NCBI GenBank assembly: GCA_029863605.1
Contig: JAOTVB010000002.1
Location: forward strand, 186,001 to 250,000
Length of the DNA stretch: 64,000 nucleotides
From: Myxococcales bacterium
Lineage (GTDB): Bacteria; Myxococcota_A; Polyangia; Polyangiales; Houyiibacteriaceae
Reading direction: 5' to 3'
Each line of letters opens with the position of its first letter. The stretch's first letter is position 1. Shown here in pieces: positions 47,335 through 59,835 of this stretch. The position numbers were made by a program, and so were the translations under genes. The notes under the pieces are model-generated. The model was not told where the DNA came from, did not search any database, and worked only from the letters and a program-made list of their open reading frames with translations.

Positions 47335-47850
<516 letters not shown>

Positions 47851-47914
47851 TCGCCCTTGCTTCGCCTATTCGCGCGTCTTGAAGTGTTGCGCAGGTCGTG
47901 CGATCAACCTTGTG

Positions 47915-48808
47915 ATGCAATACGTGCTCTCTCTGATGATCGTCCTCTCCCTCACTATGTTCACTGGCGGCTGCAATGATACTGGTGGCACCGGCGGCTC
48001 GGCGGGCACCGATGGATCGGCCGGCACGGGTGGCTCGGCGGGCGCGGGCGGGCTGGGCGGTCAGGGTGGCACCGGTGGCGTTGCCTCCGCGTGCGGTCCG
48101 ATTCCATCCAACGTGATCGATGTGACGGACGAGGACGAGCTCTTCGCGGCGCTCACGTCGGCGCCGGCCGGCTCCACCGTTCGCTTGCCTGCGGGAACCT
48201 TCACGCCGCCGATTCGCAATTGGCCGCTGCCTGAAGAACAAAACACCGGAGAATGGCCCACCCAAGTGCTGGTTAAGAATGTCACGCTGATTGGGGCCGG
48301 CAACGGGCAAACGACGCTCGCCATGCTCGGCGACGAGTTTGGCAGCGTGGGGTTGACGACGTTCGGTGATGCGATCCTTCGCGACCTCGAGATCGATGCG
48401 GGGGCGTTCTGGGGTGTCACGGCCATCGGCGCGAAGAGCCTCACGCTCTGCAACGTCACGGTCAAAACGGATGGGGCTGACGGTGTGCAGTTCTCGCAGT
48501 GGCCCGGCGGTGGTGACGGCTTCGTTGGTATCTACGACTCTGAGATCGCTTACCTAGGTAGCACCGAACGCCATGTGGGCATCGACCTCTACTGCCTCGA
48601 CCAGTCGGGCGACATCAGCGCCGAAATTCGCAACAGCCGAATCTCCGGCTGGTACGTCGGCGTCTCTTACACAAACCTCACCACCGAGAGCTGCTCCGTC
48701 AGCCTCACCGCCGACTGCAAAGGCTTCACCAACAACGAGCTCGCCAACGTCATGTACACCGAATGCACTCCCCCCGACTGCACGCAGTTCGTGGAGGAAT
48801 GCCCGTGA
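47915..48808 (+). CDS. Glycine-rich lipoprotein with beta-helix-like domain
   Basis: 297 aa from ATG 47915; lipobox FTGGC. The mature N-terminus has a Gly/Ser/Thr/Ala repeat tract (GGTGGSAGT type, about 35 residues) common in surface lipoproteins of myxobacteria. The rest reads like a right-handed beta helix (LIGAGNGQTTLAM, AILRDLEIDAGAFWGVTAIG, LTLCNVTVKTDGADGVQ, AEIRNSRISGWYVGVSY) and ends in a Cys-rich stretch. Probably exposed on the cell surface; a carbohydrate-active or adhesin role is possible. First cargo gene of the island. Confidence 0.75.
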   Translation: MQYVLSLMIVLSLTMFTGGCNDTGGTGGSAGTDGSAGTGGSAGAGGLGGQGGTGGVASACGPIPSNVIDVTDEDELFAALTSAPAGSTVRLPAGTFTPPIRNWPLPEEQNTGEWPTQVLVKNVTLIGAGNGQTTLAMLGDEFGSVGLTTFGDAILRDLEIDAGAFWGVTAIGAKSLTLCNVTVKTDGADGVQFSQWPGGGDGFVGIYDSEIAYLGSTERHVGIDLYCLDQSGDISAEIRNSRISGWYVGVSYTNLTTESCSVSLTADCKGFTNNELANVMYTECTPPDCTQFVEECP

Positions 48809-49383: not shown

Positions 49384-49468
49384 GCTCACGCAGCTCCTGA
49401 ATTGCGCAGAACCTCTTACCTGTCTGCTTTCGGTTTCGGCAAAGAAGGCGTTTGTAGTGGCTATCAGC
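49384..49468 (+). repeat. Dispersed repeat, type 2, copy 1
   Basis: Left end of the 509-bp element. The first ~35 bp match the type-1 repeats; the remainder differs and ends GCGTTTGTAGT...CTATC.GC, a tail shared with the type-2 copy at 51.85 kb. Confidence 0.6.
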
Positions 49469-49475
49469 CGAGTAG

Positions 49476-49772
49476 CTAGTCATTTGAAGGCTGATCGTTC
49501 GTGAGTTCGCTCAGGTTCTCCATGAAGTCCGCCAGCAACTCATCCGGCCCATCGAAATCCGGTCGCTCCCAGATTCTCCAATGCTTCCCGTTTGCCATCA
49601 GCCCGATCTCATCGGCGTAGATGTAGACTTCGAAAGAGTCTGCTCCAAGATCGAAGGCCGCTCGGAAGTAGGCTTCCCTGTTCCCTTGCACGGAAGCGAA
49701 CTCGACGTTGATTCCCGCATTCTGAAGCGATTCCCCTATACGCTGCGAACTCCCGTGCTGGAAATCGTTCAC
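49476..49772 (-). CDS. Small acidic protein inside the 509-bp element
   Basis: 98 aa from GTG 49772, chosen because the frame upstream lies within the repeat; AGGGCGGA precedes it. Strongly acidic, alpha/beta pattern (NVEFASVQGNREAYFRAAFDL, SFEVYIYADEIGLMANGKHW, WERPDFDGPDELLADFMENL). No signal peptide. Size, acidity and cassette location recall immunity proteins of polymorphic toxins, and an RHS-like tail occurs beside another repeat copy at 59.8 kb, but there is no direct evidence for that function. Confidence 0.6.
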   Translation of the reverse strand: MNDFQHGSSQRIGESLQNAGINVEFASVQGNREAYFRAAFDLGADSFEVYIYADEIGLMANGKHWRIWERPDFDGPDELLADFMENLSELTNDQPSND

Positions 49773-49809
49773 AACGGTCCGCCCTTGAAGATGTCGATCT
49801 TGCGATCCG

Positions 49810-49892
49810 GAGCATAGGCGAAACAAAGGCCCTTTTTCAGTCTCGCAAAGTTAGCTTATAAGAGGTTCTCCGCAATTCAGTGGCTGAGTGAG
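49810..49892 (-). repeat. Dispersed 83-bp repeat, type 1, copy 1
   Basis: Reverse-oriented full copy; about four differences from the copy at 55.6 kb. Forms the right end of the 509-bp element. Contains a short AAAGG.CCTTT inverted repeat and ends TATGCTC. Confidence 0.85.
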
Positions 49893-49945
49893 ATACGCTG
49901 AAGCAAACTGTGGTTGGGTTCGTCGCTTCTTCTTGCAAACCGGAG

Positions 49946-50137
49946 GCGAACCATGCACTGATCGAAACTGCCAAACTCAACGGCGTTGATCCGCAAGCCT
50001 GGCTCACCGACACGCTGAGCCGCATCGCCGATCACAAGATCACCCGTCTTGAGGATCTGATGCCCTGGCGTTACGGTCAGACCTGAGCGCAACTGCTGAC
50101 TGCCGATCCCGATAGAGCGGCTTCACCGGACGGATAC
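49946..50137 (+). mobile_element. IS66-family remnant (transposase C-terminus and right end)
   Basis: Frame through 50086 encodes HALIETAKLNGVDPQAW...TRLEDLMPWRY, the C-terminal end of IS66-type TnpC. 30 bp later GCGGCTTCACCGGACGGATAC (50117-50137) closely matches the IS66-family terminal inverted repeat. The rest of the element is missing; the left break is about 50 bp from the repeat at 49.89 kb. Confidence 0.85.
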
Positions 50138-50156
50138 TGATAGGATCACTTTCACA

Positions 50157-51770
50157 ATGAAGATCATCTCTAAGCGGGCTTCCCTTCAAGTTGGTGGCTT
50201 GGTCGTGCTACTGATCCTGCTTGCGTACACAATATTTTCGACCGTGCGTCTGTCTGGTGGACATATGTTCTACACACTCGATGACGCTTATATTCATCTT
50301 GCCGTCGCTGAAGAGATCTCTCGAGGTGGATACGGAATAAACTCCGGCCAGTACGCTTCTCCATCGTCTTCAATGATATATCCATATTTACTTTCATATG
50401 GAATTGGTTTTGGCATCTCTGATTTAACGCCGATCATCATACTGTCGGTTTTTGGCCTATTTAGCGTATGGATGTTTGTAGGTTTTTATTGGGAGCATGC
50501 CGTCAACAGGAAGTGTCCCGCTAGTGTTATATTTGCTTTTGTGTCTCTTCCTTTTATAGTTACTATGATTAACGCAACTGGTCTGATAGCGACCGGCATG
50601 GAGCACATGATTCATGTGTTCGCAACTATTGCTGCTATCGTTGGTGTTTCAGAAATTGGTCGCAGAAGAAGTTCAAGTCTTTCTCTAGCATTACTAGGCG
50701 CGGCCATTGCCCCACTAGTTCGCTTCGAAGGTTTGGCGCTGTCTTTCGGTGTTTTGCTAATTCTTTTATACCGTCGGCATTTCATTTCGAGCCTCTTGCT
50801 TGTGTCTGTTATTGGTTTGTTTTTTCTTACATACTTTTCTTGGACGCAATCTGTTGGCCTGCCAATGCTTCCGAGTCCCATTTTGGTAAAATCATCGGCA
50901 ATTTCGGCGGCAGCCGGAGGTCATATAGAATCTATTTTTTTCGCAGTTTTTCAGAATATTAAAGAAGCTATCTTGGGATACAGGGGTGGTCGCTCAAGTT
51001 ATTTACTACTCTTTTTTCCCGTTGTTGCGATGTTTACGTTAGGTGCAGGGATCGTGGATTCAGCACCCAAAGTAAATGTCTTGATGGTTACCTTGATTGT
51101 TGTTTTAGCTCACTTGTCTCTAGGAGACTATGACGGATGGTCCCGCTATGAGGTATATGTGATCGCCGCGATCGCCATGGCTACCATTTTGGTTTTTTCC
51201 GATTTTTTGATAAGTGGCGATTGTCGCTCAAGCTGTCTAAAAAGCTTTGCACTTCTGGGCGCTGTCTTTCTAATCGCCGCAAACTATTTTAGTGATACCA
51301 AATCGAGTCCAGACGCGTCTCAAAAAATATACTCACAGCAATATCAAATGCACAGATTTGCAACAAAGTTTTTTCCAGAACCAGTCGCGGTCAATGACTT
51401 GGGTTGGGTGTCTTATAACAATGACAACTACGTACTTGATCTTTGGGGCCTCGGTTCGGAGGAAGCGAGAATTATTAGGACCCATCAGGGGTATTCAGCG
51501 AAGACACTCAATCAGCTGGTTGAAAACCACAGTATTCCTTTTGCCATGATATTTGAAGAGTGGTTTGTTGGAGCGATACCGGAAAAGTGGTGCAGGGTGG
51601 CTACGCTAAGCTCGCCAGAAGTTTCACCAGGAGATGCAGATGTAGCGTTTTTTGTCGTTGATGTCAGTCGTGAATCGGAGGTTCGGGCAGCGATTTCCTT
51701 GTTCGCGGAGGGCGTTCCAGAGACGACAATCATTCGCCATTCGAGTTGTGAAGAACGCAAGTTTCGGTGA
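50157..51770 (+). CDS. Polytopic GT-C-like membrane protein, low GC
   Basis: 537 aa, about 10-12 hydrophobic helices, then a soluble C-terminal domain of about 130 residues. The first loop carries YTLDDAYIHLAVAEEISRGGYG and SGQYASPSSSMIYPYLL, an acidic-pair loop typical of GT-C glycosyltransferase-like proteins. Base composition and codon use are strikingly unlike the neighbours: many AT-ending codons, T-runs, GC near 45 %. This indicates recent acquisition from a lower-GC source. Flanked by the IS66 remnant and a type-2 repeat. No polyprenyl-sugar specificity can be inferred. Confidence 0.75.
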   Translation: MKIISKRASLQVGGLVVLLILLAYTIFSTVRLSGGHMFYTLDDAYIHLAVAEEISRGGYGINSGQYASPSSSMIYPYLLSYGIGFGISDLTPIIILSVFGLFSVWMFVGFYWEHAVNRKCPASVIFAFVSLPFIVTMINATGLIATGMEHMIHVFATIAAIVGVSEIGRRRSSSLSLALLGAAIAPLVRFEGLALSFGVLLILLYRRHFISSLLLVSVIGLFFLTYFSWTQSVGLPMLPSPILVKSSAISAAAGGHIESIFFAVFQNIKEAILGYRGGRSSYLLLFFPVVAMFTLGAGIVDSAPKVNVLMVTLIVVLAHLSLGDYDGWSRYEVYVIAAIAMATILVFSDFLISGDCRSSCLKSFALLGAVFLIAANYFSDTKSSPDASQKIYSQQYQMHRFATKFFPEPVAVNDLGWVSYNNDNYVLDLWGLGSEEARIIRTHQGYSAKTLNQLVENHSIPFAMIFEEWFVGAIPEKWCRVATLSSPEVSPGDADVAFFVVDVSRESEVRAAISLFAEGVPETTIIRHSSCEERKFR

Positions 51771-51849
51771 TGCGTAATGACCTGAGCCCCTGAATCTTTT
51801 CCAGTCTTGTGTAGAGTCCGACCAATCAAAGGCGGACAAATGAAGCAGA

Positions 51850-51932
51850 GCAGATAGTAACTACAAACGCTCTCTCTTAGGCTCAAAGAGTGAACTTATA
51901 AGAGGTTCTGCGCAATTCAGTAGCTGAGTGAG
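51850..51932 (-). repeat. Dispersed repeat, type 2, copy 2
   Basis: Reverse-oriented. The outer 40 bp (CTCACTCAGCTACTGAATTG...) match the type-1 repeats almost perfectly; the tail (…GCGTTTGTAGTTACTATCTGC) matches copy 1 of type 2. Its partner end was not found. Confidence 0.7.
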
Positions 51933-51960
51933 CTAAGATTGTTGGGAGAGGATGTAATGA

Positions 51961-52305
51961 ATGGCAACCAAGAAGAAGAGGGTACGTAGTAAACCTCGGA
52001 AACGCGAGGTGAATAAGAGTAAGGCGATTCGCGAGTTCAAGTCCGCTCATCCGAAGGCTGGCCCCACGGAAACTTCTCGTGCTCTCTTGCGCAAGGGCAT
52101 CAAGGTCACGCCCGTCTACGTGAGCACCGTGCTTTCTAATGCGAGCAAGGCAAGCGGTCGCAAGAGACGCGGACGAGCCAAGGCCGCTCGCGGGGGTGAT
52201 CAGTTCTCCGTTAGTGCCCTGGTCAAGGCCAAGAAGTTTGCCGAAGAGATGGGTGGAATCGCTCAGGCAAAGGCCGCGATCGATGCCGTGGCCAAGCTCC
52301 TTTAG
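51961..52305 (+). CDS. Small basic HTH-like DNA-binding protein
   Basis: 114 aa, very Lys/Arg-rich first 25 residues (KKKRVRSKPRKREVNKSKAI). A helix-turn-helix-like core (IREFKSAHPKAGPTETSRALLRKGIKVTPVYVSTVLS) is followed by a basic linker and a C-terminal helix. The pattern 'KSKAIR...P.A.P.E....L..KGI.V....VS' is one I associate with planctomycete proteins, so horizontal origin is possible. Cytoplasmic; target unknown. Sits alone between two repeat-family segments. Confidence 0.65.
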   Translation: MATKKKRVRSKPRKREVNKSKAIREFKSAHPKAGPTETSRALLRKGIKVTPVYVSTVLSNASKASGRKRRGRAKAARGGDQFSVSALVKAKKFAEEMGGIAQAKAAIDAVAKLL

Positions 52306-52332
52306 CTTTGCTCCTCGACTTTGTCGGCATCG

Positions 52333-52349
52333 GCAGATAGTAACTACAA
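52333..52349 (-). repeat. Type-2 repeat tail fragment
   Basis: 17 bp identical to the tail of the 51.85-kb copy (GCAGATAGTAACTACAA), 16 bp before the next gene start. The small HTH gene thus lies between two copies of this sequence. Confidence 0.6.
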
Positions 52350-52364
52350 CTAGCGCGACCCCGC

Positions 52365-53780
52365 ATGGACAACAACTACGATCTCATACTCGTTGGTTCG
52401 AGCTTCGCGTCGTCGTTCTTCTTGTTGGAGTACCTTAGGCGATTTGGCCCCGACAGGCGTGTGCTGGTCCTGGAGTGGGGGCGTCGACGTTCCCACCAGG
52501 AGAACATCGAATCGCGGCGCCACAGCGACTTCGACTTCGAGGATATTGCGCACAATCCGCATCCGACGAAACAGTGGGTGTCAAACATCGTATTCGGCGG
52601 CAACTCGAACTGCTGGTGGGCGTGCACTCCTCGGATGCTTCCGTCGGATTTCGAATTGAATTCGAAATATGGCGTGGGTGTCGATTGGCCGATCGGCTAC
52701 GACGACCTCGAGCCCTTCTACGCGAAGGCGGAGCAGATCATGTCGGTATCGGGCCCCGACGATGGCTCGCCTTTCCCGCGGAGCACGCCGTATCCCCAAC
52801 CCCCCCACCGCTTTTCGGAGCCGGATCGCGTTCTCAAACAGGCAAATCCCGACACGTTCTTCGTGATGCCAACAGCGAGAGCACGGGTAGCCACGAAAAA
52901 CCGTCCGGCCTGCTGCGCAACGTCGACATGCCACCTCTGTCCAATCGACGCCAAGTTCACGGTTCAGAACGAGCTTGCCTGGCTGTACGAGGATCCCCGC
53001 GTCGAGTTGCGTCTGAACGCAAAAGTGACGCATCTCGAGTTGGCCGCCGGTGTCGCCAAAGGGGTGCACTACGAGAAGGATGGGAGGACGCACCGAGTGG
53101 CCGGCGACTTGATCGGGCTCTGCGCCAACGCACTCATGAATCCATCCATCTTGCTTCGGTCAGGCGTCTCTCACCCGTGGGTAGGCGGAGGTCTCAGCGA
53201 ACAGGTGAGCAACTCGGCGAAAATCTACCTCGACAATCTGGACGCCTTCCAGGGGAGCACGAGTCTCACCGGGCACGGGTACATGCTCTACGACGGAATG
53301 CATCGACGCGAAAGGGCTGCGTGCCTGATCGAATTCTCGAACAAGCCCGTGCTTCGCCCCGAGTTCGGTCGCTGGCGTCAGATCTTGCCTGTGAAGCTCA
53401 TCTACGAGGACCTGCCCAAGCTCGAGCATAAGATCGATATCGACTCGGGAGATGGCAAACCAAGGACGATCTTCGGTCGCCACAGCGACTATACGCAGCG
53501 CGCCATCGACGAGAATCGCCAGCTTCTTGCACGAGCGGTATCGGCCCTGCCGGTGGAGAGCATCGAGTACGAAGGACAGGTATCACGCACGGAGGCTCAT
53601 ATACTCGGAACCGCACGCATGGGGACTGATCCGAGCACCAGCGTCGTCGACCCGGGACTGACCATGCATTCCCATCGTAATGTCCTGGTCCTGGGTGGCA
53701 GCGCATTCCCGACTTGCGCGCCGGCGAATCCAACGTTGACCATCTGCGCGCTGTCTCTACGCGCCGCGAGCATGCTGTGA
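52365..53780 (+). CDS. GMC-family FAD oxidoreductase
   Basis: 471 aa. N-terminal FAD-binding segment DLILVGSSFASS (a variant of GxGxxG), FGGNSNCWWACTPRM near the substrate side, a cysteine-rich patch (CCATSTCHLCPID) seen in membrane-dehydrogenase relatives. The GMC C-terminal motif HILGTARMGTDP and GGSAFPTCAPANPTLT are present. Catalytic His lies in the SRTEAH region. Likely oxidises an alcohol or sugar, passing electrons to a carrier. Coupled by a 4-nt GTGA overlap to a twin-arginine protein, as in gluconate/sorbitol dehydrogenase-type complexes. Confidence 0.82.
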   Translation: MDNNYDLILVGSSFASSFFLLEYLRRFGPDRRVLVLEWGRRRSHQENIESRRHSDFDFEDIAHNPHPTKQWVSNIVFGGNSNCWWACTPRMLPSDFELNSKYGVGVDWPIGYDDLEPFYAKAEQIMSVSGPDDGSPFPRSTPYPQPPHRFSEPDRVLKQANPDTFFVMPTARARVATKNRPACCATSTCHLCPIDAKFTVQNELAWLYEDPRVELRLNAKVTHLELAAGVAKGVHYEKDGRTHRVAGDLIGLCANALMNPSILLRSGVSHPWVGGGLSEQVSNSAKIYLDNLDAFQGSTSLTGHGYMLYDGMHRRERAACLIEFSNKPVLRPEFGRWRQILPVKLIYEDLPKLEHKIDIDSGDGKPRTIFGRHSDYTQRAIDENRQLLARAVSALPVESIEYEGQVSRTEAHILGTARMGTDPSTSVVDPGLTMHSHRNVLVLGGSAFPTCAPANPTLTICALSLRAASML

Positions 53781-54283
53781 CGGGGGCTCTTCTCGGTCGG
53801 CGTGCGTTCCTTGTCGGTATCACGGCGGCTGGCGGTGCGGTACTCGCGACCGGCGCCTCATTAGTGCTGAGTGATCCGGCCGCCTCCATCCATGCGATCA
53901 TTGCCAAGCGGCTGGGTGTGCTCACATTTGAACCGGAGGGTCTCGGAAAATTCGTGGGCGACTACGTGGAACAGAATGAAGCACGGATCTCGGATCGCCG
54001 ATGGCAGTTCTTTCGGGCAGTCCTGCCACTGTACCGGCACACTGGCTTGCTCAAAGCCACACCGATGGCCAGGTATCTCTACAGACGTGAATCCGAAGTA
54101 GTCTCGGCTCTGCTGCTTTCGTCGGATTTCTTCATGCGAGCCGACCAGTCGCCGGAATCCACGAAAATCACACCGATTCGTTACCTTGGCTGGTATGAAG
54201 ACAATCTCTGTACGTCGAGGAATCCGTTCGCGCGCTTCGATTTTCCGTCCGATCGAAGTCGAGATGGCGCCCGAGGGCACTGA
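53777..54283 (+). CDS. Twin-arginine small subunit of GMC dehydrogenase
   Basis: 168 aa from GTG 53777, fixed by overlap with the GMC stop. N-terminal Tat signal GRRAFLVGITAAGGAVL. The mature part (HAIIAKRLGVLTFEPEGLGKFVGDYVEQNE, ...YLGWYEDNLC) resembles the gluconate-2-dehydrogenase subunit-3 type of helper protein by size and context. It probably carries the GMC subunit across the inner membrane as a hitchhiker and anchors it in the periplasm; the family call is moderate. Confidence 0.62.
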   Translation: MTGALLGRRAFLVGITAAGGAVLATGASLVLSDPAASIHAIIAKRLGVLTFEPEGLGKFVGDYVEQNEARISDRRWQFFRAVLPLYRHTGLLKATPMARYLYRRESEVVSALLLSSDFFMRADQSPESTKITPIRYLGWYEDNLCTSRNPFARFDFPSDRSRDGARGH

Positions 54284-54373
54284 AGAATCCCGCCTGCTTC
54301 TCGTTGTCTGCTAACTTCATCCTCGCCGACCGAGCTGGGCACTTGGCCGCACAGCGCGCGTTCGACCCGCCCG

Positions 54374-55312
54374 TTGTCGAGCGCCATGACGGATCACCAC
54401 CCTCGCTATTGCAGTCGGACGCTCGTTCGTGGATCTACATCCGCTTCCGCCGATGAAACGACCGAGACCCTTGCCGACCCGGTCGCCGACCCAATGGCAC
54501 TCGACAACAGCAGGCCGCCTCCAAAAACCAAGGCCACCCTGGCCCAACCGCCCAACATCGAGTGGTCGCTCTGGGCCGAGCTCGGCTTTCTCGTCGTCGC
54601 CAGCCACATCGTTCAGCTCGGCGACGACGGCACACGCTTCGATTATCGAAAAGAGGGCGGTCAAGACATCCTCTTTCCGTTCTTCCGGTTGAGCACTGAC
54701 CTCAAGTTCAAAGGCCGGCACACCGTCGTCTTTCTCTACCAGCCGCTGAAGCTCAGCGGTGAGACCGTGCTGACTGAGGACACCGTGTTTGACGGCATCG
54801 TCTTTCCTGCGGACACGGCTGTCAACAGCACGTATGGTTTTCCGTTTTGGCGGATCAGCTATCTCTATGATTTCCTCCGCCGTGCGGGCGACGAGGCCTC
54901 GGTCGGGTTTTCACTGCAGATTCGAAACGCGACGATCACGTTTACGTCGGCGGACGGCATGCTGCGTGCCGATCGTCGTGACGTCGGCCCCGTGCCAGCG
55001 CTCAAATTCCGGGGTCGATGGGGATTCGAAAGCGGTGTCTGGTGGGGTGCGGAGGTCGACGGGATCTACGCGCCGATCAGCGTGATCAACGGCAGCAGCA
55101 GCGAGGTCACGGGCGCCCTGCTCGATGCGAGCCTACGCGTCGGCTACGATTTCACGAACCGGATCTCTGGCTTTTTCAACGTGCGGTACCTCGGTGGCGG
55201 CGCCGTTGGCGACGAAAACAATCCTGACCCACAAAGCGACGGCTTCACCAAGAACTGGCTACACTTCGTTACGGTGAGCCTCGGTGTCGAGTTCCGCGCG
55301 GTCTCGCGTTAG
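54374..55312 (+). CDS. Outer-membrane beta-barrel-like protein
   Basis: 312 aa as annotated; the N-terminus lacks a signal peptide and an ATG at 54494 is an alternative, so the 5' end may be damaged. From residue 60 on, alternating beta strands with aromatic girdles (WSLWAELGFLVVASHI, HTVVFLYQPLKL, FPFWRISYLYDFL, VGFSLQIRNATITF, LRVGYDFTNRISGFFNVRYLG) indicate an outer-membrane barrel. Follows the GMC pair by 90 bp on the same strand. Confidence 0.58.
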   Translation: MSSAMTDHHPRYCSRTLVRGSTSASADETTETLADPVADPMALDNSRPPPKTKATLAQPPNIEWSLWAELGFLVVASHIVQLGDDGTRFDYRKEGGQDILFPFFRLSTDLKFKGRHTVVFLYQPLKLSGETVLTEDTVFDGIVFPADTAVNSTYGFPFWRISYLYDFLRRAGDEASVGFSLQIRNATITFTSADGMLRADRRDVGPVPALKFRGRWGFESGVWWGAEVDGIYAPISVINGSSSEVTGALLDASLRVGYDFTNRISGFFNVRYLGGGAVGDENNPDPQSDGFTKNWLHFVTVSLGVEFRAVSR

Positions 55313-55371
55313 ACGCCAAGCCGCTCACTGTCCTGCCGTCACGGTCACGCGCAGCGAACGCGTCAAAGAAG

Positions 55372-55400
55372 AAAGCCGGTTCTCTTTCGAGACGGGCTTT
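55372..55400 (-). terminator. Hairpin terminator downstream of 5S rRNA fragment
   Basis: Imperfect inverted repeat AAAGCC...CTC / GAG...GGCTTT with a short loop, followed on the minus strand by a T-rich run (TTCTTT). It lies immediately downstream of the 5S 3' end, as rRNA operon terminators do. Confidence 0.65.
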
Positions 55401-55407
55401 CATAGTT

Positions 55408-55457
55408 CCGGCAGCGTCCTACTCTCCCACAGGGCTGCCCCTGCAGTACCATCGGCT
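55408..55457 (-). pseudogene. 5S rRNA gene fragment (3' ~50 nt)
   Basis: The minus strand reads GCCGATGGTACTGCAGGGGC and GTGGGAGAGTAGGACGCTGCC, the conserved 3' third of bacterial 5S rRNA (loops D/E and helix I 3' strand). Similarity stops abruptly at about 55457; no 23S or 16S sequence is nearby. With the adjacent terminator it is the end of an rRNA operon left by a rearrangement or insertion. No function is expected. Confidence 0.85.
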
Positions 55458-55593
55458 CTGATGGTTGAGACTCTTAGCGTTCGTTGAGGTTTCGAAAACG
55501 GGCCTCTGCAGGGCGCAGTCCCTGCTACTCGAGATCCGCGTCGAGCTCGTGGATGGCGGCTTTTTCCTTGACGAGCTCGATGAAGCGCGCGAG

Positions 55594-55676
55594 CTCACTC
55601 AGCTACTGAATTGCGCAGAACCTCTCATAAGTTAACTTTGCGAGACTGAAAAAGGGCCTTTGTTTCGCCTATGCTC
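55594..55676 (+). repeat. Dispersed 83-bp repeat, type 1, copy 2
   Basis: Full copy; differs from the copy at 58.5 kb at only two of 83 positions. With the 5S fragment and terminator it occupies most of the 504-bp gap 55313-55816; I see no gene in the remainder of that gap. Confidence 0.88.
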
Positions 55677-55816
55677 GAAGAGACTATAGGACGTCGACCA
55701 CGAAGCGAGACCAACGCCTCCAAGAACACGCCCTGCTGACGGCGACACGCTCGATGTCGGCGCGTTTCGACAGACACGCCCCGCGGCTAGCTCTTCGGAT
55801 AGACAACGCAAAGGAC

Positions 55817-56527
55817 CTATTCTGGCTTGCGAGCGGTGACGATCTCCGATGGGAAAAGACACTGTTGATGGTACTCGGTCTCGTCCACGGCAAACCCATG
55901 GTGCGGCAGTTTACGTGCAACTTCGACGCCACGACAACCTCCAAGAGTGCGTGGTGACCATCGGGAGATGTGCTCGTAGAGGCGACTCATCGGGGTCCGA
56001 CCGCGAGCCATGTTCACGAGCACGATTCTGCCTCCGGGCCTGAGAACCCGCGCGAACTCGCCGAGCGCCTCCGCCGTGTCTTCCGCGGAGAGCAGATCGA
56101 ACATGTAGGTGTTGATCAACAGATCGATACTTTCGCTTTGGAAGGGGAGATCGAGCGCGCTGCCGAGACTCAGCTCGTAGTCGACCTTTGCATGTTTGCT
56201 GGCGCGCTCTTTCGCCTTCGCCAGCATACCCTCGGAGAGGTCGATCCCCATGTTCTTTCCGTGCGGATTTCGTCGAAGGACTTGCTCGAACATCAGGCCC
56301 GTCCCAACGGCGACTTCGAGGATCGCTTCACCGTCCTGAATCCGCGCGAGCTCCAGGGCCCGCTTTCTCGCCTTCGATTCCGTGGCAAATGCCCAGACGT
56401 CGTAGGCGGGAGCGAGAGAATCATAGAGTGCCCCGATCTGCTCCTGAGGCACAGGGGCTGCCTCCGCCTGCCCCTGCGAGCGGTCCGAAGTTGGTGAGCC
56501 GGGGGTGCAGCACGATCGAATTTCCAT
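55817..56527 (-). CDS. SAM-dependent methyltransferase (UbiE-like class I)
   Basis: 236 aa. SAM motif I ILEVAVGTGLMFEQV, motif post-I MGIDLSEGML, motif II/III (DLPFQSESIDLLINTYMFDLL, ARVLRPGGRIVLVNM). N-terminal tail of about 30 residues with CC near residue 6, then the helix LYDSLAPAYDVWA typical of UbiE/ArsM-type enzymes. Acceptor unknown; a quinone or thiol/metalloid substrate would fit the operon. Last gene of the AhpD-like/ECF/quinone-reductase operon (31 bp after the reductase). Confidence 0.82.
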   Translation of the reverse strand: MEIRSCCTPGSPTSDRSQGQAEAAPVPQEQIGALYDSLAPAYDVWAFATESKARKRALELARIQDGEAILEVAVGTGLMFEQVLRRNPHGKNMGIDLSEGMLAKAKERASKHAKVDYELSLGSALDLPFQSESIDLLINTYMFDLLSAEDTAEALGEFARVLRPGGRIVLVNMARGRTPMSRLYEHISRWSPRTLGGCRGVEVARKLPHHGFAVDETEYHQQCLFPSEIVTARKPE

Positions 56528-56558
56528 ATCTCTGTCTCCTTTTTAGACCCACTTGTTT

Positions 56559-57296
56559 CTAGAATTCTTTCCCTAGGACGTACGCCCGGCTCAAATACTC
56601 CTGCCGCGTCGCGGCACTGACGGCGTTGACGGCATGGAAGTAGACGTGCTCCACGTCGTTGATTCCCGGGTATCGAAATCCCCAGCTGTCTATCACCTGC
56701 GCCATCGCCTCCCCCAACGCGGCCTTGTAGGCATCTTCGCTGAAGAATGTCGTGTTGATGATCAACGCTTTGTCGTGCTTCAACAGCGGGACTCGTCCGT
56801 CCACGTCGCCTTGCCACCCCTCGGGCGTCAACGAATAGGCGAAACCGTAGGTGAAAACCCGGTCGATCCAGCCTTTCAGGATGGCAGGAAAATGCATCCA
56901 AAAGACGGGGGCGATGAAAGCCAGCCCTTGCGCGCCGGAGACTTGTTCTTGTTGCTCCCGCACGTCTTTGGGCTTGTTTCTCTTGATCAATCTCACGACG
57001 TCGGAAAGCGTCTTGTCTTGCATCCATCGCTTCGCGAGCAATCTTTTCAGAGGCCCACCACTGAGTTGCAGCACTTGCTGTTTGAGGTTCATGCCTTCCA
57101 GCACATGATCGGGGACAGTCTCGTCGGCAAAGAAGGCATAGTCATTCATGTTGAAGACCGGATCAAATCCGATCTCGTACAGATCGATGACTCGTGACGT
57201 GTGCCCGCCATCTTTGAGTCCTTTGGTGAACTGCTCAAGGATGGCGTGACAAAAGGACTTAGGGTTTGGGTGCGCGTACACTGTCAAAACTCTCAT
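56559..57296 (-). CDS. Flavodoxin-fold NAD(P)H:quinone oxidoreductase
   Basis: 245 aa from ATG 57296 (upstream frame overlaps the sigma-factor gene). N-terminal RVLTVYAHPNPKSFCHAIL is the FMN/FAD phosphate loop of the NQO1/KefF/MdaB family; FIAPVFWMHFPAILKGWIDRVFTYGFAY is the family's central signature. Two-electron reduction of quinones or related electrophiles in the cytoplasm is the usual role. The start overlaps the sigma-factor 3' end by 38 bp. Confidence 0.87.
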   Translation of the reverse strand: MRVLTVYAHPNPKSFCHAILEQFTKGLKDGGHTSRVIDLYEIGFDPVFNMNDYAFFADETVPDHVLEGMNLKQQVLQLSGGPLKRLLAKRWMQDKTLSDVVRLIKRNKPKDVREQQEQVSGAQGLAFIAPVFWMHFPAILKGWIDRVFTYGFAYSLTPEGWQGDVDGRVPLLKHDKALIINTTFFSEDAYKAALGEAMAQVIDSWGFRYPGINDVEHVYFHAVNAVSAATRQEYLSRAYVLGKEF

Positions 57297-57909
57297 CGTC
57301 TCGTCCCTCCGGTTTGCAGGAGTCACCCTGTTGCTTCCTATCACAAGGCACGGTGTCCTCTTCGAGAGAGAGCACACAGCCTTCTCGGAGACTCGCTTTG
57401 AGCGCGGCGCGGCCACGATGTAGTAAGACTCGGGAATTGGACTCCGAAATATCTAGTTGGGCCGCGATCTCCTTGTGTTTCAGGCCAGCCATGTCGTGAA
57501 GCGCGATGACGTTACGTTGGGGCGGGGGCAGGCGAAAAACGAACTCGGCGACACACGCCGACATTTCGTCACGCAACAGCTCGTCCTCTGTGTCCACCGC
57601 AGAAGCGAAACGCTCGACCTCGCCGCCGGTCTCGTCCGGTGCACGGGTGCCTTTTCGCAAGTGGTCTTTCGCGACATTCATCGCGATCGAGATCAACCAG
57701 GTTTTCTCGGAGGCGTCGCCGCGAAAAGACGCCCGCCCTGTGTGCGCCTTCAGGAAGGTCACCTGCGTCAGGTCCTCTGCCAACGTCGCGTCACCCAACA
57801 TCCGCGTCAGGAAGGCGCGCACAGCCGACCGATGCTCGCTCCACAGGTCAGGGCGCACAGCCGCAACCGCTGTCTCTCTTCTGGTTCTTGCTCGCCGCTT
57901 GGTTCCCAT
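57259..57909 (-). CDS. ECF-type RNA polymerase sigma factor
   Basis: 216 aa from ATG 57909 (GTG 57858 would shorten the overlap with the upstream gene to 11 bp). Sigma-2 region LTRMLGDATLAEDLTQVTFLKAH and TWLISIAMNVAKDHLRK; sigma-4 region FRLPPPQRNVIALHDMAGLKHKEIAAQLDISESNSRVLLHRGRAAL. A C-terminal extension of about 40 residues contains three cysteines (GCVLS, PCDRK, SCKPE) that might sense redox or metal. No anti-sigma gene is adjacent. Probably drives its own operon. Confidence 0.85.
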   Translation of the reverse strand: MGTKRRARTRRETAVAAVRPDLWSEHRSAVRAFLTRMLGDATLAEDLTQVTFLKAHTGRASFRGDASEKTWLISIAMNVAKDHLRKGTRAPDETGGEVERFASAVDTEDELLRDEMSACVAEFVFRLPPPQRNVIALHDMAGLKHKEIAAQLDISESNSRVLLHRGRAALKASLREGCVLSLEEDTVPCDRKQQGDSCKPEGRDDESFDSVRAPKP

Positions 57910-58111
57910 TGCCAATGATCTCTTCGACGTAGCCGCTGGTCTTGGATGCGGCCCCGCGGGCCACCATAAGGCCGACTTCGACCGCTGTCTGCACGTCCGC
58001 GCGATCGATGCCAAGGCGATCGCAGGTCTCCAGATGATGCTGCAGGCATGGCCTGCAATTCACCGCAGCAGAAGCTCCAATTGCAACTAGCGCTTTGATT
58101 TGCTCATCCAT
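57848..58111 (-). CDS. AhpD-like carboxymuconolactone decarboxylase family protein
   Basis: 87 aa from ATG 58111, preceded by an excellent ribosome-binding site (GGAGGAG). AhpD/CMD fold with the redox motif CRPCLQHH (CxxC..H) in an all-helical protein, followed by a Cys-rich tail DSGCGCAP. By family it acts as a thiol peroxidase or disulfide reductase. The C-terminal CGC tail is unusual and could bind metal. First gene of the operon; overlaps the sigma-factor start. Confidence 0.82.
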   Translation of the reverse strand: MDEQIKALVAIGASAAVNCRPCLQHHLETCDRLGIDRADVQTAVEVGLMVARGAASKTSGYVEEIIGNGNQAASKNQKRDSGCGCAP

Positions 58112-58143
58112 GTTCTCCTCCAAAGTGGCCCTAACCACCTTGA

Positions 58144-58170
58144 GACGATCCCGCGGATCAGAACGTTACA
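58144..58170 (-). promoter_or_regulatory. ECF-type promoter of the AhpD-sigma operon
   Basis: Minus strand: TGTAAC (58165-58170), 17-bp spacer, CGTC (58144-58147), about 33 bp upstream of the first start codon. This is the textbook ECF pattern (-35 with AAC, -10 CGTC) and suggests autoregulation by the operon's own sigma factor. Confidence 0.6.
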
Positions 58171-58531
58171 CCATGGCTCTACCGAGCTCAGGTGCCCGGG
58201 CGTCGGATCGAGACAACGACGGTCCTCATACGGGCCGCAACTATCAACTCGCGGCAGGGCTTTTCGTATTCGAGAGCCACGCAGCTAGCCGCACCCACCG
58301 ATCACGATCCGGAGCGACGGCGAAGAGAAGCTACGCAAGCTGGCGCTCGCTACGCCGACGCGTCCGACCTGATCGCAACCGACCACTGGTAAGTCGCATC
58401 CAAGCTCGATGCTATGCGTCGCCGCTGCGACGAGGTTGGATTCAATGCTGATGGCATTGTCATAAGAATGCCCGGTAACGCGTTTTCCTCGTGTTCTTTG
58501 GACGTGTTCTTATCGCTACCTGTCCGCGAAA
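58171..58531. other. Gene-free stretch
   Basis: About 360 bp between the ECF promoter and the next repeat. Short open frames exist on the plus strand but show no coding character, start signal or recognisable similarity. Confidence 0.5.
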
Positions 58532-58614
58532 CTCACTCAGCTACTGAGTTGCGCAGAACCTCTCATAAGTTAACTTTGCGAGACTGAAAAAGGGCCCTTG
58601 TTTCGCCTATGCTC
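58532..58614 (+). repeat. Dispersed 83-bp repeat, type 1, copy 3
   Basis: Full copy, 81/83 identical to the copy at 55.6 kb; here the inner palindrome is AAGGGCCCTT. Lies 133 bp upstream of the barrel gene at 58748. Confidence 0.88.
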
Positions 58615-58747
58615 CCGGTTGCCGCGCTCCACGCCTTCGGCTTATTCGCGATGGGGAGCGAGTCGAACGAAGCAGCGTAATTTTGCGCACGCAACCGAAG
58701 TTCTATACCGTGGCTTCGGGGGATGACGCGTCCAGGGGGAGGTTGAG

Positions 58748-59692
58748 ATGAGAAGGTGGATCACTCCGGTGTGCGCCGCCACGATCGCGGGCGGGTGTGT
58801 GATTCCAAGCCTGGTGTTCGCCGAGGAAGAGGCTGGCGAAACGCCGCCTTCCTTGGTGGCCGATGAGGCGCCGCCTCCCGCAGTAGAAGCGGCAAGCGTG
58901 GAAGCCACGAGCAAGGACGCTGCCGACAACTACGGGCTCGCCTATGCCGGGCGAGAGCTGACGATGCCGCGAGGTATGGTCCGAGGCACGTTTGACGTGA
59001 GTACTTTGCACCTTGGCCTGGGTCTCTTCAGTCAAAACTTCGTTTCGCTCAACTTCGGGGCAGCGATCTCGCCGGTCGACGATCTCGAGCTCGGTTTCTC
59101 ACGCTACCGGATGGGCTCGTATCCAGGCATTAACTTTATCGACCTAGTGAACTTGGGAGGGTCAGGGCTCATCTCTGCCTTTGTCTCGCCTGAAGGCGAT
59201 TTCGGCGACATTCCATTCTACGTACGATACCAGCCCATGAGTGGAACTGCGGACGTAGCGCTCGAGTTCCGTCTTAGGATCCCAACCCTATCCGAGTTCG
59301 GCCTTGCGTTCGGCGTCCCGGTGAGAATCCATGCGGGCGACTCCGTCGCGATCGACACCGGTTTCGATCTCACGCTTGACGATCCGGGTGGCGTTAACAT
59401 TCTCAGCGTGGGTGTGCCATTTCAGATCGTTGGCAATGTTTCGGACAACTTCTTCTTGGAGCTACAGACAGGCGTCAGCCTTCCAGACATCACGACAGAT
59501 CCGGTCGTCACCGTGCTACCCCTCGGTTTTACATTGGGCGGCTCGGTCGATGCTGGTCCGGTAATGCTCGACGCCTTCTTCAATTTCCGGTTTCCAACGT
59601 TTGCGGCGTTTGCTAGCGGAAACTCTGAAATCACCACCGAAATTTGGACGATCACCATCGGCATCAACGTCTACTCGCCTGTGCTTTTTTGA
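58748..59692 (+). CDS. Outer-membrane beta-barrel protein
   Basis: 314 aa. Signal peptide (about 1-25, ending VFAEE), an acidic, Pro/Ala-rich linker, then regular beta strands (STLHLGLGLFSQNFVSLNFG, DIPFYVRYQP, VALEFRLRIP, FGVPVRIHAG, FFLELQTGVSLP, VMLDAFFNFRFP). It ends on phenylalanine (YSPVLF), the usual outer-membrane assembly signal. GGGGGAGGTTGAG precedes the ATG. It is flanked by type-1 repeats in the same orientation, as if on a 1.2-kb module. Confidence 0.75.
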   Translation: MRRWITPVCAATIAGGCVIPSLVFAEEEAGETPPSLVADEAPPPAVEAASVEATSKDAADNYGLAYAGRELTMPRGMVRGTFDVSTLHLGLGLFSQNFVSLNFGAAISPVDDLELGFSRYRMGSYPGINFIDLVNLGGSGLISAFVSPEGDFGDIPFYVRYQPMSGTADVALEFRLRIPTLSEFGLAFGVPVRIHAGDSVAIDTGFDLTLDDPGGVNILSVGVPFQIVGNVSDNFFLELQTGVSLPDITTDPVVTVLPLGFTLGGSVDAGPVMLDAFFNFRFPTFAAFASGNSEITTEIWTITIGINVYSPVLF

Positions 59693-59767
59693 CATGCATC
59701 ACCTGAGCTCCCCGGATGTCGCCGACGAGCAGGTTCATGCCGCGCACACCGCTCCTACCGCTCCGGG

Positions 59768-59835
59768 ATTGCGCAGAACGTCTTATAAGTTAACTTTGCA
59801 AGACTGAAAAAAGGGCCTTTGTTTCGCCCATGCTC
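59768..59835 (+). repeat. Dispersed repeat, type 1, copy 4 (left end diverged)
   Basis: Matches the other copies from ATTGCGCAG onward with one extra A in the A-run; the first ~15 bp are replaced. The ATGCTC at its end opens the RHS-like fragment. Confidence 0.8.

Follow-up and report, generated by a model that had tools for sequence, protein, structure and literature searches.

Copies of the repeat in the window

The window, that is, the whole 64,000-nt stretch that was analysed (Myxococcales bacterium, contig JAOTVB010000002.1), contains a tRNA-Val gene with a partial integrase ORF beside it, and six full copies plus one truncated end of a short repeat, whose presence was confirmed by both repeat search and profile search. 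The features are as follows.

47335-47409, plus strand: tRNA-Val(GAC), Rfam/tRNA match
47360-48310, minus strand: partial tyrosine integrase ORF (C-terminal part, PF00589) of the island type, beside the tRNA
49384-49468, plus strand: putative oriIS mini-element, type 2; starts with GCTC, right end AGGCGTTTGTAGTGGCTAT, then CAGC (49465-49468)
49810-49892, minus strand: putative oriIS mini-element, type 1; right end GGGCCTTTGTTTCGCCTAT, then GCTC at the low-coordinate end
51850-51933, minus strand: putative oriIS mini-element, type 2; right end GAGCGTTTGTAGTTACTAT, then CTGC
51961-52305, plus strand: 114-aa ORF without Pfam match, candidate cargo and sole gene of the 483-bp unit
52333-52349, minus strand: truncated right end only, reading ..GTTGTAGTTACTATCTGC on the reverse strand; probably a cut-off copy
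483-bp unit bounded by 51850-51933 and 52333-52349: on the minus strand, begins with CTGC and ends with CTAT|CTGC
55593-55676, plus strand: putative oriIS mini-element, type 1; then GCTC
58531-58614, plus strand: putative oriIS mini-element, type 1; then GCTC
58615-58656, plus strand: second dispersed motif, ..GCCGCGCTCCACGCCTTCGGCTTATTCGC.., abutting the right end of the preceding copy
59752-59835, plus strand: putative oriIS mini-element, type 1; left end diverged; then GCTC

A preliminary description of the repeat had placed every copy correctly except the last, which starts at 59752 rather than 59768, its left end being present and diverged. The copies at 55.6 and 58.5 kb show 98% identity over 83 nt, and type 1 copies end in TATGCTC, both as described. 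Types 1 and 2 have a common left part (GCTCACTCAG...AATTGCGCAGAAC) and both finish with GGGCSTTTG....CTAT plus 4 nt, the right ends being TTTCGCCTAT|GCTC in type 1 and GTAGTNACTAT|CWGC in type 2. The two types had been taken for the two ends of a module; they are instead variants of one oriIS right end behind the same left part.

Distribution and subfamilies of the element

The 13-nt core AATTKCGCRGWAC generated 155 matches in 18 of the 19 genomes of the genus, while the reversed-pattern control generated 0. Up to 30 core matches were found per genome, and 13 in the genome of the window, where the element also occurs at C4:78 kb, C17:155-172 kb, C24, C28 and other places. Because the window copies were recovered by profile search with E values of 1e-11 to 1e-25, and because the core pattern had these counts against zero reversed-pattern matches, the repeat is beyond chance. 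Outside the genus, the core was present in only two of 15 other genomes of the family. A stricter pattern for family B (see below) in a GTDB scan hit Myxococcota or unclassified deltaproteobacterial metagenome-assembled genomes (MAGs), mostly of the same group, and had no match in IMG/VR. The genus, one of sediment myxobacteria, has about 150 copies in total; most of the genomes compared are fragmented MAGs. A Desulfobacterales MAG also has one family B element, on a contig of 3 kb (L298, CAMYLH010000532.1), either by transfer or because the contig is mis-binned.

Two families were distinguished by sequence and length. Family A, to which the window copies belong, reads GCTCACTCAGCTCCTGAATTGCGCAGAACGCCTTATAAGTTAACTYTG... 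and is about 84 bp long; family B reads (GC)TCTCTTAGCCCATCGGG...GCGCCGAATTKCGCGGTACTANNNNGTTATGTCG... and is ~105 bp long. A/B mosaics are present, some copies are truncated, and the right end common to both families is GGGCSTTTGNNNNNNCTA[TC] plus four bases. A further repeat, AATTTCGCAGAACGTATATTATGTAAACTT, was observed at L214:6377 (plus), L225:7345 (plus), L148:9896 (plus) and L165:1513 (minus); it has only the core in common with the element and is possibly a third subfamily or another transposon.

The right end matches the oriIS of ISCR elements

In ISCR/IS91 elements, the Y2 HUH transposase presumably nicks at the oriIS. Over its last 19 nt, the element agrees with the terminal sequences of ISCR1, ISCR2 and another two elements of ISCR type. 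The known ISCR ends were read from plasmid records as the point of divergence after the transposase, which lay at +235 for ISCR2/ISVsa3, +232 for ISCR1 and +246 for an ISCR3-like element, directly after ..GTGAAAAGGGCGTTTATTCTTCCTATACGT, ..AAAAAGGTGGTTTATACTTCCTATACCC and ..GAAAAGGGCGTTTGAACTTCCTATACGC, respectively; the element ends in ..TGAAAAAGGGCCTTTGTTTCGCCTAT|GCTC and ..ACAGGGCGTTTGAATTTACTAT|CTGC. The ISCR1 end as read agrees with the published 22-bp oriIS GTGGTTTATACTTCCTATACCC (PMC13023784), and the published oriIS sides are 232 bp for ISCR1 and ~240 bp for ISCR2 (PMC6218425, PMC2725981). A matrix built from the four ISCR ends selected the 19 nt that precede the final tetranucleotide in six of six window copies. 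Its score was matched by 1-33 of 2000 shuffles across these copies, the two most diverged ones scoring modestly (15 and 33 of 2000 shuffles). This terminal sequence sits at the boundary with variable DNA.

Four genes for Y2 transposases (Y2_Tnp, PF04986) were found in sister genomes (G017:C12, G018:C126, G018:C344 and G006:C311), and after the stop codon of all four a family A or B element is located at +111 to about +215. The oriIS-like end is kept behind three of the four genes, the G006 copy being broken inside the element. The G018:C126 transposase has ~41% identity to that of ISVsa3/ISCR2. On the side of the putative left end (terIS) of the full element, homology upstream of the transposase gene reaches about -520, but this stretch includes a motif also found without the gene.

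Based on the matching right end and the place 3′ of the Y2_Tnp genes, the sequence comparison identifies the repeat as the terminal ~100 bp of an ISCR2-like, IS91-family transposon of the genus, mostly standing alone. It had been considered beforehand that the repeat might be only part of a known IS; this proved correct insofar as the element corresponds to the 3′ end of an ISCR-like IS, and incorrect insofar as most copies are solo, without a transposase. No Y2_Tnp was found in 12 of the 19 genomes of the genus, including that of the window, so the window copies would be relics, or would have moved in trans or arrived with islands.

Boundaries, flanks and junctions with gene fragments

The left ends of the element are constant, mostly GCTC, whereas the right tetranucleotide varies. 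Among 73 copies, the 4 nt after CTAT were CAGC in 21, GCTC in 21, CTGC in 12 and GCCC in 5; the first, second and third together account for 54 of the 73, and 59 with GCCC. There is no target duplication, the constant left GCTC standing against the varying right tetranucleotide. As described previously for the copies at 55.6 and 58.5 kb, flanks are unrelated: among 93 copies compared after removal of identical orthologous copies, one pair has a common left flank and one pair a common right flank, too few for the direction of capture to be read from one-sided common flanks. Joining of flanks gave no clean or informative empty site in the fetched loci, and flank searches at C4:78 kb and C24 led to rearranged rather than empty sites.

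In the window the element never lies inside large genes, as had been stated; in relatives, it cuts gltA, a uvrA-like gene and an esterase gene, and intact relatives place the junction at the left end of the element. The clearest trace of capture, a single case on a 9.8-kb MAG contig, is a ~140-bp piece of gltA in G016, which runs ..GGATC|GCTC into the element. At the same point of gltA, six relatives have ..GGAT[CT]| followed by GCCC in five and by GCGC in the sixth. At its start, the piece has GCCC in the fragment and in one intact relative, a short match beside a 3-nt indel. In G011, a truncated uvrA-like gene and a truncated hspQ-like gene meet at a single element, and an intact uvrA-like gene is found elsewhere in the same genome. 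A 605-aa gene 97% identical between G016 and G007 has different elements at its edges (cassette exchange), and homology in the region of a 770-aa gene begins exactly at the right end of the element in G000, the gene being located elsewhere in G017. The gene-fragment junctions fit one-ended rolling-circle capture. As the direction of the gene-element units is inconsistent, some of the pattern may be due to copies recombining with one another once inserted.

Proposed mechanism and alternatives

One-ended transposition has been described for IS801, where it yields right-end fragments of 229-679 nt and recruits upstream DNA that ends in a tetranucleotide, the transposase acting in trans (PMC3189936), and about 100 bp of oriIS was reported to be sufficient for ISCR1 (PMC13023784). 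From the sequence comparisons, each copy is probably a miniature ISCR2-like oriIS end, and one-ended capture by a transposase acting in trans probably left the element-bounded cargo. The earlier suggestion that the element bounds mobile modules is supported. In the mechanism we propose, a Y2 transposase supplied in trans would nick at CTAT|NNNN and replication would proceed leftwards through the element, either stopping at its own left GCTC or running into upstream DNA up to another GCYC/CWGC-like tetranucleotide. The product, captured DNA plus element, would then go in 5′ of a similar tetranucleotide. Repeated rounds could give rise to series of element-bounded cargo in tRNA-linked integrase/relaxase islands, that in the window included, where the element would also serve as homology for ordinary recombination. 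It is conceivable, although we put it forward tentatively, that this amounts to an integrase-free gene-cassette system, in which each cassette ends in a ~100-bp oriIS mini-element and is moved by an ISCR-like transposase in trans through one-ended rolling-circle copying with GCYC/CWGC at start and end, giving element-punctuated arrays at tRNA genes.

The main rival is that the copies are dead scars, i.e. solo right ends that were produced by deletion, spread for the most part through homologous recombination and the vertical inheritance of islands, and no longer have a cassette function. The 12 genomes without Y2_Tnp (the window's own among them), the truncated copies, and the observation that most natural IS801 fragments are reorganisations (PMC3189936) are in its favour. 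However, the fixed lengths of 84 and 105 bp with one left end common to dozens of unrelated places, the all-different flanks and the near-identical copies are better explained by repeated and fairly recent movement than by random deletion. We regard it as unlikely as a full account, although shuffling of solo-end relics by homologous recombination may be true in part.

Movement as REP-like elements by the RAYT/Y1-like transposases of the same islands is very improbable. Some twelve of the loci fetched contain RAYT-like genes, and a short stem (AGCCCATCGGGCT) is present at the left of family B, but the elements have no constant arrangement around these genes, whose product matches Y1_Tnp weakly, and instead keep a constant position downstream (3′) of Y2 transposases. 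It is equally improbable that the elements are oriT-type sites of the islands' MOB relaxase: a relaxase gene (PF03432) and a NikA-like RHH gene do adjoin family B copies in several genomes, but at these loci the element follows the relaxase operon on its 3′ side, whereas an oriT would be expected upstream of the operon; moreover, most copies have no relaxase nearby, and the right end matches oriIS.

A role as attC-like sites, whether in an integron or in a cassette system run by a tyrosine recombinase, is very improbable too. Genes do sit between copies, many copies are near tyrosine integrases, and one island of G017 contains a same-strand series. Nevertheless, none of the 19 genomes passed the integron-integrase cut-off (TIGR02249), single strands fold no better than shuffles (RNA-parameter folds, both strands, three copies), the boundary sequence matches ISCR ends, and the junctions are at the outer ends rather than at one internal core site. 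The preliminary description had likewise seen no attC features, and the test for conserved RNA structure that it suggested gave no support, the element having no Rfam match and no fold beyond shuffles in the three copies.

Other candidates were rejected. Neither repeat search nor boundary comparison found terminal inverted repeats in the element, which speaks against a MITE bounded by them, and MITEPsy1 (PMC3189936) is of similar size but IS5-like with inverted repeats; only the tRNA matched in the window at gathering score, against an Rfam RNA or a tRNA/rRNA leader; and the region has two promoter-like sites, a lower number than shuffles give, with none inside the element, against an outward sigma-70 promoter.

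Comparison with known systems

Like the oriIS of ISCR2 (ISVsa3) and other ISCR/IS91 elements, the element has terminal GGGCGTTTxxxxxTNCTAT at the boundary, follows the gene for a Y2 HUH transposase at about 100-240 bp on the 3′ side and is found beside shuffled genes. It differs in being mostly solo, 84 or 105 bp long and present at up to 30 core matches per genome, in being followed by GCTC, CAGC or CTGC, and in its host, a sediment Myxococcota clade with a transposase ~41% identical. The miniature fragments of IS801 in Pseudomonas syringae (PMC3189936) are likewise tetranucleotide-bounded right ends that recruit upstream DNA, with the IS801 transposase acting in trans; those are 229-679 nt long and derive from a resident IS801, whereas the element here has a fixed short length and its own conserved left end, and its tetranucleotides are CAGC/GCTC/CTGC/GCCC, not GAAC/CAAG. 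With integron cassettes it has in common a short repeat beside many exchangeable genes and, in one island, a same-strand series; unlike them, it has no integron integrase, no attC fold and junctions at the repeat ends, with cargo of up to several kb in either orientation. In Myxococcota, the miniature ISCR/IS91 oriIS ends bounding exchangeable genes are a real, high-copy and apparently undescribed variant of known elements. The new part appears to be a high-copy, oriIS-only element found between the cargo genes of tRNA-linked islands in uncultured Myxococcota.

ISCR elements have been linked to the spread of antibiotic-resistance genes. As of 2018, no ISCR transposition had been shown experimentally (PMC6218425). 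A lineage with ~150 short oriIS copies, transposase-bearing sisters and readable junctions could show which ~100 bp is needed, which tetranucleotides are used and by which route genes upstream are taken up. Such a lineage further suggests that gene capture of the ISCR type takes place in the environment as well as in the clinic.

Island setting and neighbouring motifs

At the tRNA-Val locus corresponding to that of the window, an island of 5 kb in G017 contains one copy of the element. This island (L064:6445-11651, compared with window positions 47335-47451) is bounded by a complete, divergent tRNA-Val on one side and by a remnant of the 3′ half of the original tRNA on the other. The C17 series in the genome of the window and the G017:C12 series, whose copies all have the same orientation, occupy the same hypervariable locus beside tRNA-Leu as alternative contents. 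Genes for an integrase, a MOB relaxase and a NikA-like RHH protein, as well as RAYT-like genes, are present in related islands. A mobilisation module (MOB relaxase PF03432, NikA-like RHH and a third small ORF) with a family B element at its 3′ end was observed at L189:285-2118, L191:134-1967, L051:1998 onward and L178, and a RAYT/Y1-like family with a weak Y1_Tnp match, common in the islands, at L226:5024-5893, L191:10431-11318, L051:10863-11780 and L218:9036-9944.

The second motif, GCGCTCAACGCCTTCGGCTTATTCGC, was found at 58615-58656 in the window, at L050:18244, L191:6153, L187:2258 and L189:6262, and at ~45 places in the genus, with one match of the reversed control in the 19 genomes. It is often preceded by GACATCGAAGATGTC or a TTTTG...CAAAA hairpin, and is located near island integrases and, elsewhere, upstream of IS91-like transposases.
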